In this document: positions 1,032-59,684 of the stretch, piece after piece
How positions within the stretch are numbered: position 1 is the stretch's first letter
How the letters are laid out: each line of letters begins with the position of its first letter
From: Symbiodinium natans
Lineage: Eukaryota; Sar; Dinophyceae; Suessiales; Symbiodiniaceae
Length of the DNA stretch: 64,000 nucleotides
Direction: 5' to 3'
Assembly (NCBI GenBank): GCA_905221605.1
Contig: CAJNDS010002111.1
Coordinates: 127,001-191,000 of the forward strand
Position numbers and translations under genes: made by a program
The notes under the pieces: generated by a model
What the model was told of the DNA's origin: nothing
The model's input: the letters and a program-made list of their open reading frames with translations, nothing else
The model's database searches: none

Positions 1032-1112
1032 CCCTTTCTTGGTGCATCTCGGGCACCCAGTTTCATGGCAAGCGTCTCGGGCCCTGCCAAGATCGACTGC
1101 AAGCTTTCGGAG
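1032..1112 (-). CDS. Candidate exon, flanked by CCCTAAA and TTTAGGG arrays
   Basis: Minus strand: CCAAG acceptor, then exactly 27 open codons beginning LRKLAVDLGRARDACHETG, then donor GTTTAGGG, which is the first unit of the adjacent array. Phase 0 at both ends. The plus strand is also open (reads PSFMASVSGPAKIDCKLSEL), so strand is not certain; the minus reading has both splice sites and matches the neighbouring minus exons. Confidence 0.42.
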
Positions 1113-1139
1113 CTTGGCGTTCGGGGGTTTAGGGTCGGT

Positions 1140-2115
1140 TTCGGGTTTAGGTTTAGGGTTTAGGGTTTAGGGTTCAGGGTTTCGGGTTTCGGGTTTAGGG
1201 CTTAGGGTTTAGGGCTTAGGGTTTAGGGCTTAGGCCACCCAGGTCAACGACCAACATGGATTGCTTGGTCCAGCAAGAGGCGCGCCACCAACTTAGCACA
1301 CCCTAAACCTTAAACCCTAAACCCTAAACCCTAAACCTTAAACCCTAAACCCTAAGCCCTAAACCCTATACCCTATACCCTAAACCCTAAACCCTAAACC
1401 CTAAACCCTAAACCCTAAACCCTAAACCTACACCATCATCTACACCTGCAAGCTCTCCGGCCTGCGACTCCAGGCTGCGGATTTGGGGGACTTCAGAGGG
1501 GACAACAAGGCAGAAGCTGCCGAGGTCTTTAAATCTTAGGAGTTTCAGGGCTTTGTTTAGGGTTTAGGGTTTGGGGTTTGGGGTTTGGGGTTTAGGGTTT
1601 AGGGTTTAGGTGTGTACAGGCTGGAGTCAAAGCAGCAGCCCCGAACCCGAAACAGTGCAACCCGCCCACCCCACCCCCGCCTGTGCCAGCACTTGGGCTT
1701 GGGCTCTTGTCCTTCCCAATGGCCGTGATTCGGGGTTATCAGGGTGAGGGTTGTTGGGGTATTAGGCTTTAGGGTTTAGGGTTTAGGGTTTAGGGTCCCT
1801 AAAACCGAAACCCTCAACCCCCCCAGACCAGTCAGGGGTCGTGTCGGGGCGGGCTTAGGAAGCTCCTGTTCAGAGACCAGGCTGTGAGGCTTAAGGCACC
1901 TTAAGCTCCTCACTGCTGAGCCCCGTAAACTACTCAAAGCCCCAAAGCCGAAACCCTAAACGCGTCCTGGGGCGTGGACGGCGAGGCTGCCGGACCTTGG
2001 GAGCCTGGGATTAGGCCGGGTTTAGGGTTTAGGGTTTAGGGTTCAGGGTTTAGGGTTTAGGGTTTAGGGTTTAGGGTTCAGGGTTCAGGGTTTAGGGCTT
2101 AGGGTTTAGGGTTTA
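1140..2115. repeat. Cluster of alternating TTTAGGG and CCCTAAA arrays
   Basis: TTTAGGG at 1140-1232, 1553-1610, 1768-1795 and 2018-2115; CCCTAAA at 1301-1428. Variants TTCGGG, CTTAGGG and TTTGGGG are frequent. Confidence 0.93.
1446..1526 (-). CDS. Candidate exon
   Basis: Minus strand: acceptor TTTAAAG, then a frame reading LGSFCLVVPSEVPQIRSLES and on to QAGELA, then donor G|GTGTAGATG. Flanked left by CCCTAAA and right by TTTAGGG repeats. Between this and 1112 a further short open piece (about 1250-1300, reading LVARLLLDQAIHV on the minus strand) may be another exon. The plus strand is also open here. Confidence 0.42.
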
Positions 2116-2484
2116 CGCGCAGGAATCCTGCATGCGAACCAAGGCCTGTGGGCAAACCTATTAGTAGCTTTTCGCTTCGGGGCCTATGAGACCCCCTTCG
2201 AAAGCCCACAATGGGGGACACTTTGGATCCCTACAATGACACCTGCATATAGGGTTTCATCGATGCTTCACATTCAACCCAACTCAGCAGCGCAGACTAC
2301 TGAGAGAGTCTGAGAGATGAGACTTAAATGATAGGTTTTAGGGTTTCACGTGTTATCAGAAGCCCCAAGTCCCGAAGAAACCCTAGATTCTTAAGCTCCC
2401 CGATTCCCTTCCCCCCCCCCCCCAAAAAAAAAAAAAAAAACTAAGCCATGACCCCCTGAACCCAAAAATCACACTAAACCCGAA

Positions 2485-2848
2485 ACCCTGAACCCTAAAC
2501 CCTAAACCCTAAGCCCGAAACCCGAAACCCTAAACCCTAAACCCTAAACCCCCGCGGCACCTCGCCGCTTGAGCAGGCCCTGCCAGCTTCCTCCACTGCC
2601 CTCTGCGAAGGAGGCAGCCGCCTCCTGGAGCCCAATGGCCTCCCAGGGATATCTTTGGGAGGGGGGAGGGTAGGGTTTAGGGTTTAGGGTTTAGGGTTCA
2701 GGGTTCAGGGTTCAGGGTTCAGGGTTCAGGGTTCAGGGTTCAGGGTTCAGGGTTCAGGGTTCAGGGTTCAGGGTTCAGGATTCAGGGTTTAGGGTTTAGG
2801 GTTTAGGGCTTCGGGTTTAGGGTTTAAGGTTTATGGTTTAGGGTGTAT
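2485..2848. repeat. CCCTAAA array, exon island, TTTAGGG/TTCAGGG array
   Basis: CCCTAAA at 2485-2550. From 2697 to 2780 about twelve units are the homogeneous variant TTCAGGG, returning to TTTAGGG at the right edge. Confidence 0.93.
2561..2652 (-). CDS. Candidate exon
   Basis: Minus strand: acceptor CCAAAG, then YPWEAIGLQEAAASFAEGSG and on to SWQGLLKRR, then donor GAG|GTGCCG; the length is 1+90+1 bp. It lies between a CCCTAAA array (2485-2550) and a TTTAGGG/TTCAGGG array (2670-2848). Confidence 0.5.
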
Positions 2849-3084
2849 AGAAGGGAAGCTCGCTTGTGCTAAGAGCACCCGGGCCGCTCACCCCAACCAC
2901 CCAAACTATTCTCATTTAGGCTTTAGGGTTCCCCCCCCCAAACCCCCCTCAAGGGGGGCTTTCTTGCTTTTTACTTCTTGCCGTTTTGTAGGAGAGGAAT
3001 GTACTAGCTATTGGCCGGTATTCTGGCTCTTGTGTTCGAGAGGAACTGGAGCTGAGGAGCCTAAGGGACTGCCCAGTCTCCGGA

Positions 3085-3156
3085 CTAAGGGAGTTCCGAG
3101 GCCCTCCCGAAAACCCGGAGTGCCTGCTGCCTCAGCTGGAAGAGCACGGACTCCAC
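3085..3156 (-). CDS. Candidate terminal exon
   Basis: Minus strand: acceptor GTCAAG, then KVESVLFQLRQQALRVFGRA (numbering from the preceding Lys codon) and a TAG stop at 3085-3087. The helix-like composition resembles the other coiled-coil exons. No partner exon has been proved. Confidence 0.42.
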   Translation of the reverse strand: MESVLFQLRQQALRVFGRASELP

Positions 3157-57716: not shown

Positions 57717-57874
57717 TTTAGGGTTTAGGGTTTAGGGTTTGGGGTTTGGGGTTTAGGGTTTAGGGTTTAGGGTTTAGGGTTTAGGGTTTAGGGTTTAGGG
57801 TTTGGGGTTTAGGGTTTAGGGTTTAGGGTTTAGGGTTTAGGGTTTAGGGTTTAGGGTTTAGGGTTTAGGGTTTA
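57717..57874 (+). repeat. (TTTAGGG)n array
   Basis: About 22 units, right of the same exon; it ends in a half family A element. Confidence 0.97.
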
Positions 57875-57912
57875 GGAGGTTCATGGTTAGTTATAGGTAG
57901 GGTGAGAAGTAC
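57875..57912. mobile_element. Half family A element
   Basis: AGGAGGTTCATGGTTAGTTA, then lost at the edge of the 148 bp satellite. Confidence 0.75.
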
Positions 57913-59035
57913 CTGGGGCTTTGGGCTCAACATGTCGCTGGAGGGTTCCGGGCTGTCCCGCCGAGTGCTACTGATGCTCCGGGCTGTTGCGGCTGATGCT
58001 CGTGATGCGCGGGCGGGCTGGGGTGACAAGTCGCCGCCGTCGCGGCTGATGCTCATGATGCTGGGGCTTTGGGCTCAACATGTCGCTGGAGGGTTCCGGG
58101 CTGTCCCGCCGAATGCTACTGATGCTCCGGGCTGTTGCGGCTGATGCTCGTGATGCGCGGGCGGGCTGGGGTGACAAGTCGCCGCCGTCGCGGCTGATGC
58201 TCATGATGCTGGGGCTTTGGGCTCAACATATCGCTGGAGGGTTCCGGGCTGTCCCGCCGAGTGCTACTGATGCTCCGGGCTGTTGCGGCTGATGCTCGTG
58301 ATGCGCGAGCGGGCTGGGGTGACAAGTCGCCGCCGTCGCGGCTGATGCTCATGATGCTGGGGCTTTGGGCTCAACAAGGGTTCCGGGTTGTCCCGCCGAA
58401 TGCTACTGATGCTCCGGGCTGTTGCGGCTGATGCTCGTGATGGCGGGCGGGCTGGGGTGACAAGTCGCCGCCGTCGCGGCTGATGCTCATGATGCTGGGG
58501 CTTTGGGCTCAACATGTCGCTGGAGGGTTCCGGGCTGTCCCGCCGAATGCTACTGATGCTCCGGGCTGTTGCGGCTGATGCTCGTGATGCGCGGGCGGGC
58601 TGGGGTGACAAGTCGCCGCCGTCGCGGCTGATGCTCATGATGCTGGGGCTTTGGGCTCAACATGTCGCTGGAGGGTTCCGGGCTGTCCCGCCGAATGCTA
58701 CTGATGCTCCGGGCTGTTGCGGCTGATGCTCGTGATGCGCGGACGGGCTGGGGTGACAAGTCGCGGCCGTCGCGGCTGATGCTCATGATGCTGGGGCTTT
58801 GGGCTCAACATGTCGCTGGAGGGTTCCGGGCTGTCCCGCCGAATGCTACTGATGCTCCGGGCTGTTGCAGCTGATGCTCGTGATGCGCTCGCGGGCTGGG
58901 GTGACAAGTCGCCACCGTCGCGGCTGATGCTCATGATGCTGGGGCTTGGGCTCAACATGTCGCTGGAGGGTTCCGGGCTGTCCCGCCGGATGCTACTGAT
59001 GCTCCGGGCTGTCGCGGCTGATGCTCGTGATGCTA
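57912..59035 (+). repeat. 148 bp tandem repeat, about eight copies
   Basis: Units start AACATGTCGCTGGAGGGTTC at 57928, 58076, 58224, 58509, 58657, 58805 and 58952, with one truncated copy near 58372 that lacks about 11 bp. Units differ by a few substitutions. Because 148 is not a multiple of 3, no frame stays open through the array. Each unit holds two short sub-repeats (GCTGATGCTC followed by GTGATG or ATGATG). GC-rich satellite, no gene. Confidence 0.95.
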
Positions 59036-59039
59036 GTTT

Positions 59040-59600
59040 AGGCTTAAAGTTAAAGGCATGTTGGTTTAGGGCTTGGGGCTCACGAGGGTCTCCTCCCGAA
59101 GTTGCGCATTCACGCTCTTCTCCTTCTCTGCCTGCAAGAGGGGTCCTACTGTTCAACCCTGTTTAGCCCTCGAACTGCCCACCCTCCTTAACAAACCCTA
59201 CGCCGCAGTTCCCACCAGAATCTTGCGTAACCCAAGACCCACCCCTAGCCCCAGGCTTAGATTCCAGAACGTCCCTCGCCAAGTCGTCTGGTATCCCCAA
59301 CCCCCCAAAACACGACCCGGATGGGGAGCATCGCACGATGCTAGTTGGGGATCCGCTGCCTCTTGGGCACCAGTACGGCCCATGCAATGGGTTAAGGGTC
59401 AGGATGGCCCGGACCCACCATTCAGGAGCCAAGTACTATCGGGCCTTTAATTTATTGATGGCTTAGAACCCGGTTTTGGGGGTTCAGATAGTATAGTTGT
59501 CTAGGAACCATAAGAGGATCCTACTAGCCATTGTTCCGACCTTTAGAGTATGAGAGAGGGAGGGGATGGCCTGCTGCACAGCAAGACCCGAAAAAACATC
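59040..59600. other. Open on both strands, no decision
   Basis: Minus strand reads LGIPDDLARDVLESKPGARG near 59230-59300 but the plus strand is open too; a family D element follows. Confidence 0.4.
59448..59543. mobile_element. Family D element, diverged
   Basis: TTGATGGCTTAGAACCCGGTTTT to ACTAGCCATTGTTCCGACC; the same order of motifs. Confidence 0.68.
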
Positions 59601-59603
59601 CAC

Positions 59604-59684
59604 GTTCCCCTGGTGGCGCCAGGCCTCCTTCTGCAGTTGCTCCAGCTTTGCCTGTCCACTTCGCGAACGCTTCGGGTCTTTGCC
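59604..59684 (-). CDS. Coiled-coil gene, most 5' exon identified
   Basis: Acceptor AATCCAAG, exactly 27 codons starting GKDPKRSRSGQAKLEQLQKE and ending AWRHQGN, donor AAC|GTGGATG; phase 0 both ends. Here a CCCTAAA array lies right of the exon, so the flank rule is broken. Confidence 0.57.

Follow-up and report, generated by a model that had tools for sequence, protein, structure and literature searches.

Orientation of telomere-type repeat arrays beside small exons in the genome of Symbiodinium natans

Repeat arrays and islands of the window

The window analyzed here is a 64-kb stretch of the Symbiodinium natans genome (contig CAJNDS010002111.1:127001-191000, labeled C1799, from an assembly of 759,417,921 bases in 2,543 contigs) that carries tandem copies of the heptamer TTTAGGG and of its complement CCCTAAA. 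TTTAGGG is the telomere repeat of dinoflagellates, as described in the accessible portions of two reports (PMC11453091, PMC11508785). Arrays were called as runs of at least three heptamers with no more than one mismatch each and at least two exact copies, and are referred to as C arrays (CCCTAAA) and G arrays (TTTAGGG). There are 46 C arrays and 57 G arrays in the 64 kb, and their order is strongly skewed: among 53 gaps of at most 250 bp between neighboring arrays, 28 run from C to G, 16 from G to G, 5 from C to C, and 4 from G to C, and the 28 C-to-G gaps were never reached in 20,000 shuffles of the array labels (mean, 13.2; maximum, 25). In the band of 70 to 165 bp, 27 of 40 gaps are C to G (the others being 8 G to G, 3 G to C, and 2 C to C), which bears out the initial annotation in describing most exon-like islands as having CCCTAAA on the left and TTTAGGG on the right. 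All nine islands that it cited fall inside one of these 27, and the exceptions it named are genuine, with those at 17968 and 31393 coming after a TTTAGGG array and that at 59604 preceding a C array at 59695.

The arrays have the character of interstitial telomeric sequences, being tandem repeats away from the ends; the window begins 127 kb into its contig, and arrays are also internal to the 3.4-Mb contig C1. True chromosome ends were rejected as an explanation because the arrays are short and internal. Since the heptamer length is not a multiple of three, any frame through a long perfect array reaches a stop codon in seven codons or fewer (TAA in C arrays and TAG in G arrays), and long perfect arrays are therefore noncoding. 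Variant heptamers are unequally represented in the C arrays and the reverse-complemented G arrays of the window, L036, and L038 (CCCTATA, 3 versus 20; CCCCAAA, 61 versus 31), a possible sign of mutation or selection that differs between strands.

The 27 C-to-G islands are given here with coordinates from the array calls, in the order C array, island, and G array, and each with its coding-signal p value. Seventeen with no assigned strand lie at 940-1030, 1031-1127, and 1128-1228 (p = 0.06); 1301-1426, 1427-1543, and 1544-1611 (p = 0.005); 2454-2548, 2549-2675, and 2676-2843 (p = 0.15); 5237-5271, 5272-5396, and 5397-5522 (p = 0.10); 6123-6277, 6278-6376, and 6377-6446 (p = 0.41); 6906-6940, 6941-7093, and 7094-7121 (p = 0.01), with an inner short TTTAGGG run at 7042; 16953-17021, 17022-17144, and 17145-17282 (p = 0.005); 17701-17804, 17805-17885, and 17886-17962 (p = 0.10); 18548-18607, 18608-18723, and 18724-19200 (p = 0.14), this G array being the longest array of the window; 22416-22547, 22548-22650, and 22651-22772 (p = 0.18); 24564-24621, 24622-24752, and 24753-24822 (p = 0.03); 26637-26699, 26700-26852, and 26853-27006 (p = 0.08), with a poly-G run at the end of the island; 35480-35514, 35515-35620, and 35621-35655 (p = 0.37); 36272-36414, 36415-36519, and 36520-36589 (p = 0.35); 42369-42459, 42460-42541, and 42542-42781 (p = 0.09); 49151-49248, 49249-49406, and 49407-49427 (p = 0.13); and 55238-55321, 55322-55421, and 55422-55478 (p = 0.48). 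Six more, likewise without a strand, have no support for coding status: 4466-4521, 4522-4627, and 4628-4701 (p = 0.60); 14310-14378, 14379-14472, and 14473-14507 (p = 0.83); 27680-27714, 27715-27845, and 27846-27873 (p = 0.73); 28895-28950, 28951-29057, and 29058-29100 (p = 0.67); 40161-40251, 40252-40337, and 40338-40456 (p = 0.60); and 41213-41233, 41234-41339, and 41340-41367 (p = 0.53).

The other four islands have a candidate reading on the minus strand (a slash marks the splice junction). An acceptor-like site points to this strand for 14855-14917, 14918-15030, and 15031-15079 (p = 0.065), which reads CCCTAAATTCGCTCTTGCAG/GCTGCC ... GTTTAGGG. The assignment is tentative for 25218-25301, 25302-25437, and 25438-25505 (p = 0.05), with the reading CCCTAAACTCCTTAG/CCTCAG; for 50699-50762, 50763-50923, and 50924-51045 (p = 0.01), with CCCTAGCGCAG/GCCGCG; and for 57499-57561, 57562-57716, and 57717-57877 (p = 0.005), where an open frame rich in E, K, L, and A is followed by GTTTACATAGGG.

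The coding signal of the islands is modest. Seven of the 27 score at p < 0.05, compared with 21 of 178 intron-interior segments (Mann-Whitney p = 0.0016), although these controls are also above the 5% chance expectation, and the six islands with p > 0.5 count against coding status. Pfam gave no match above the cut-off for window islands in the read-through frames scanned, with SR-25 and DNA_pol_phi as weak matches; the scan took in part of the whole, namely six frames of L038, three frames each of the plus strand at 1 to 15 kb and the minus strand at 49 to 64 kb of the window, two frames of the minus strand at 15 to 30 kb, and the ten long open reading frames alone for the rest. Codon-score gene calls on each island gave no clear strand assignment, and neither Rfam (at gathering thresholds) nor a tRNA scan returned a match. 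As no homolog was found for the window islands in the part of the frames scanned, the polarity was tested on homology-identified exons elsewhere in the genome.

Array polarity at homology-identified exons

Hidden Markov model (HMM) searches of the genome placed exons of HSP90 and of the dynein AAA_6 domain. The dynein sample comprises 14 exons in 13 loci out of 37 matches, chosen for small size, a criterion fixed before their own flanks were seen; it omits strong intron-poor matches and some small ones, and its second batch drew three exons from two contigs already known to bear arrays, which bears on the array frequency but not on the polarity. Eight of the 14 exons are array-flanked, and the nearest array is TTTAGGG downstream of all eight and CCCTAAA upstream of seven. 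Five of the eight lie on the plus strand of their contigs and three on the minus strand, in agreement with the earlier proposal that the polarity is the same for genes on either strand. The remaining six exons have no arrays (two in L055 and one each in L057, L060, L061, and L065). Measured to the HMM edges, G arrays start from 8 nt inside to 53 nt past the end of the matched exon, and the C-to-G gaps around seven of the exons are 97 to 191 bp, resembling the window islands at 81 to 161 bp.

Pooling these with 20 HSP90 exons gives 34 anchored exons, for which the nearest array within 100 nt and with at least one exact heptamer was scored. Upstream there are 11 C arrays and 4 G arrays, with none at 19 exons, and downstream 11 G arrays and 1 C array, with none at 22 (Fisher p = 0.0014). 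A stricter rule of two exact heptamers leaves 10 C and 3 G upstream and 9 G and 1 C downstream. Arrays common to both sides of introns shorter than 150 nt were entered on both sides in the full table, and when the arrays of these introns are taken out by manual sorting the counts are 10 C and 2 G upstream and 9 G and 0 C downstream (p = 0.0002); the p values serve only as a guide, given that exons belonging to the same gene are not independent observations. The orientation bias that the initial annotation suggested looking for near splice sites is thus present at these exons, and its description of each intron as starting with TTTAGGG and ending with CCCTAAA survives as a tendency among array-bearing introns but not as a statement about each intron, since 19 of the 34 anchored exons lack an array within 100 nt upstream and 22 lack one downstream. 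These exons show arrays sitting in predicted introns beside small exons, with this polarity on both contig strands, in some introns and genes but not in all; many introns have no array.

The relation of the arrays to the splice sites themselves is less uniform. The motif GGGTTTAGGG lies immediately 3' of the matched exon in two of the eight array-flanked dynein exons (L059 and L062), where the acceptors read CTCCGCAG/G and CACTCTCAG/G, respectively; the proposal that the array supplies the donor GT accords with these two but with none of the six resolved array-bearing HSP90 introns. In the dynein set, C arrays end 9 to 79 nt upstream of the matched exon, and the acceptor AG thus comes from other sequence. 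The exon start before the dynein P-loop motif is identical, by eye, in copies with arrays (L063 and L064) and in an array-free copy (L055), and arrays can therefore enter preexisting introns. Dynein heavy chain genes are seemingly of two kinds, near-intronless (with a 3,242-amino-acid open frame on C2492) and intron-dense (as on C1812), the matched exons of the latter being 60 to 100 nt and spread over many kilobases.

The HSP90 copies used here are on contigs C1224 (L045), C754 (L051), and C41 (L052), with exon blocks that are 88.6 to 97.5% identical. The HSP90 of this genome that we read as the endoplasmic reticulum type is 94% identical to symbB.v1.2.018894, which we take to be a Breviolum minutum protein, 98% to an ENA protein, and 87% to a Polarella glacialis protein. 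L045 is uninterrupted over 1507-2632, and the same region is split by 11 introns in L051 and 7 in L052, which have only two intron positions in common. The absence of these 18 introns from L045 would fit recent gain, the alternative being loss, perhaps by retroposition, in L045 plus one copy or the other; in our best reading, some of the introns into which arrays spread were recently gained. The junction search admitted only AG acceptors and GT, GC, GA, or GG donors within 3 nt of the overlap, and within this restricted search all 18 introns conform to the dinoflagellate spliceosomal type, with AG acceptors and GA (11), GC (3), or GT (4) donors; one had an alternative solution with a GG donor. 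Junction overlaps of 1 to 17 nt are present in all 18, including three of 1 to 2 nt that are possible by chance, and these introns thus have the short direct boundary repeats expected of introners.

Heptamers are present in six of the 18 HSP90 introns, with GA, GC, or GT donors and with the array never at the intron start. In the L051 intron at 2555 (207 nt) a C array ends 24 nt upstream of the exon block, and the L052 intron at 1848 (806 nt) has a G array followed by two C arrays. Polarity cannot be assigned in introns shorter than 150 nt because one array serves both sides; three of the array-bearing introns in L051 are of this kind, two with G and one with C arrays.

Genome-wide distribution and other features of the window

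Overlapping exact matches to (CCCTAAA)3 number 1,184,385 and 1,185,204 on the two strands of the assembly, compared with 33 and 41 for a reversed-pattern control, and at 7 bp per start the arrays amount to roughly 16 to 17 Mb, or about 2% of the assembly. Their density is patchy: 10-kb stretches were taken on 20 randomly drawn contigs, 10 of which were too short, and of the 10 used, six have no array and the others have 1, 2, 10, and 28. On contig C1, the first forward (CCCTAAA)3 among the matches listed is at 235,081 and is followed by many more. Arrays look compartmentalized along chromosomes. Two perfect C units followed after 75 to 105 nt by two perfect G units match 63,099 times genome-wide, and the opposite order 30,350 times, both counts being inflated by overlapping starts; this roughly twofold excess is weaker than the skew in the window. 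The repeat is also present at 22 viral-contig loci, with one or two arrays each and no C-to-G brackets.

The window has several other features. A Ras-family gene on the minus strand has two introns, at 23820-23930 and 24008-24123, that are 78% alike, start with GTTGCTTGGCAGCCCAG or GTGGCTTGGTAGCCCAG, carry the inverted form at the end (imperfect in the first), and have short duplications; these are introner elements, and a relative (72%) is located at 16798-16905. A protein encoded on the minus strand (10168-11403) is related to sequences from Symbiodinium sp. CCMP2456 (48%) and from an ENA source (54%). One long open frame at 46042-46872, also on the minus strand, encodes an ankyrin-repeat protein that has a signal-like start and contains a repeated EAPAEAPA stretch. 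At 57765-59090 there is a tandem repeat whose unit is 148 bp (138 in one step), and some 1.2 kb at 12050-13300 are purine-rich (GAGAGGG-like on the plus strand), with several frames open on both strands; this segment is likely not coding.

Origin of the polarity and relation to known systems

We favor, with moderate confidence, an explanation in which telomere-type heptamer arrays spread into introns and splicing sorts the copies, setting which of them persist near exons and in what direction and position. The polarity would then be fixed by splicing selection or tolerance and not by the origin of the arrays. On the acceptor side, (CCCUAAA)n has neither AG nor GU, is CCCU-rich, and stops before the exon, such that it would offer no decoy acceptor and could act as a pyrimidine tract or branch region, and (UUUAGGG)n in the same place would present UUUAG/G decoys competing with the true AG. 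On the donor side, (UUUAGGG)n would give GGG runs and GU, and at times it adjoins the exon directly. It is possible that the arrays aid exon definition, and the pattern suggests that the splicing machinery may have recruited telomere repeats, or that these became adapted to it.

Genome-wide counts of acceptor-like motifs are mixed overall and partly confounded. C and G arrays are equally common over both strands because an array that reads as C on one strand reads as G on the opposite one, and the strict motif YYYYNCAGG is found within 30 nt after two perfect C units 16,573 and 8,312 times (forward and reverse) versus 8,073 and 4,453 times after two perfect G units, with the forward counts taken to repeat each array start. 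This result supports sorting by splicing, although it may owe something to composition. A seeming strand block among the strict-motif matches was rejected as a listing-order effect. Several observations weigh against sorting by splicing. The twofold excess of the strict motif may reflect base composition beside C arrays, and the looser YYNCAGG is not enriched after C arrays (48,515 and 26,275) relative to G arrays (48,854 and 28,912), with its reverse-complement control higher still (69,747 and 39,316). A check of the sequences identified 9 of 15 G-side matches as array variants and 15 of 21 control matches as partial repeat units, and the looser-motif counts were thus judged confounded, but they lend sorting by splicing no support. 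G arrays precede acceptors in 4 of the 15 array-bearing upstream sides, which strict decoy avoidance forbids; TTTAGGG lies 16 nt upstream of the matched dynein exon in L053, and a single copy lies 37 nt upstream of the exon block in the L051 intron at 2315 (279 nt). The scarcity of C arrays after donors (1 of 12) is likewise more than decoy avoidance alone can account for, and a positive donor-side role of GGG or GT, or pairing with the C array, is therefore likely.

In a rival account, (UUUAGGG)n and (CCCUAAA)n of one intron would pair into a stem that joins distant splice sites, with selection keeping the ends complementary and the direction set by whichever end has to avoid AG. The complementarity is perfect, a toy construct pairing 30 nt with 30 nt folds at -53 kcal/mol, the L052 intron at 1848 has G then C, and inverted repeats near intron ends are known from dinoflagellate introners in the available text of PMC7789003 and PMC10666404. 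We nonetheless consider this account unlikely, as array lengths across G-to-C gaps are uncorrelated (rho = 0.16, n = 40, p = 0.34), the L051 intron at 2555 holds a C array alone, and any C array complements any G array, leaving no specificity for one intron; that lengths are uncorrelated where pairing is free to occur favors splicing-based sorting. A family of introners, mobile introns with telomere-repeat-based ends, would also show the same polarity in either insertion orientation. The two related Ras-gene introns, which have short duplications and whose inverted ends are of the CTTGGTAGCCCAG type, are consistent with such a family, as are the 18 HSP90 introns absent from the third copy, with their AG acceptors near short junction overlaps and heptamers in a third of them. 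Terminal inverted repeats are present in the two Ras introns, one imperfectly, but array introns have complementary arrays that are near-terminal only, with other sequence between the C arrays and the dynein exons, and the shared dynein exon start in L063, L064, and array-free L055 implies that some host introns need not be array-borne. We give this account a low probability.

Other routes to the polarity appear less probable again. If DNA ends flanking exons had been capped by telomerase and then rejoined, the polarity would be fixed whatever the gene strand; that of the islands is exactly that of a telomere-capped linear fragment, and in mammals telomere repeats are documented to have been inserted at double-strand breaks (PMC7215372). 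Such healing would require breaks near both sides of exons instead of anywhere in introns, as well as filler separating G from C arrays, often by hundreds of bases, and many window arrays lie outside any C-to-G island, making it a decidedly improbable source. Even less probable, in our view, is that the islands are not exons and that the window polarity has some other cause, such as assembly error or units repeated over a short length. The Pfam result, the six islands with high coding p values, and a genome-wide excess of only about twofold would fit this, but the same bracket surrounds homology-identified dynein and HSP90 exons, and the islands as a group outscore G-to-C interiors for coding.

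Sorting by splicing could be extended, tentatively and with considerable doubt, to a genome-wide exon-bracketing code in which complementary orientations of the telomere repeat act as donor-side and acceptor-side signals and the arrays are supplied perhaps by the telomere-repeat machinery itself; exons of 60 to 100 nt would then be recognizable even where the introns run from hundreds to thousands of bases. This genome, in which (CCCTAAA)3 has about 1.18 million overlapping matches on each strand, has arrays next to splice sites with one polarity. Exon recognition is thereby connected with the gain of introns and the spread of telomere repeats, in a lineage whose splice sites are unusual.

Interstitial telomere repeats have been described before, as have telo boxes and introners whose ends are inverted; within the partial coverage of our literature search, which took in few subscription papers, no account of polar telomere arrays bracketing exons was found. 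G-run enhancers located in introns close to donors, together with the pyrimidine tracts close to acceptors, resemble the arrays in being G-rich after the donor and C-rich before the acceptor, but here one repeat and its complement give both, and in long arrays. Introners of Amoebophrya (PMC7789003) and Prorocentrum cordatum (PMC10666404) likewise combine inverted repeats close to the intron ends with short direct repeats at the junctions, and stem formation is proposed for those of Amoebophrya. In the available portions of those papers the inverted repeats are short (8 to 20 nt) and are not called telomeric, whereas here tandem TTTAGGG and CCCTAAA extend for tens to hundreds of nucleotides, near-terminal and with one polarity relative to splicing. 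Plant telo boxes (PMC3022908) likewise place this telomere motif within genes; unlike the arrays, they are short, lie in 5' regions and early introns, and are tied to activation of expression, with no exon-bracketing arrays in the accessible text. Mammalian interstitial telomeric sequences are also internal telomere repeats, some of them intronic, and the available part of PMC7215372 finds their intronic share compatible with random insertion, reports no position beside splice sites, and leaves open whether they affect splicing; those of S. natans, in contrast, cluster at exon edges with a polarity.

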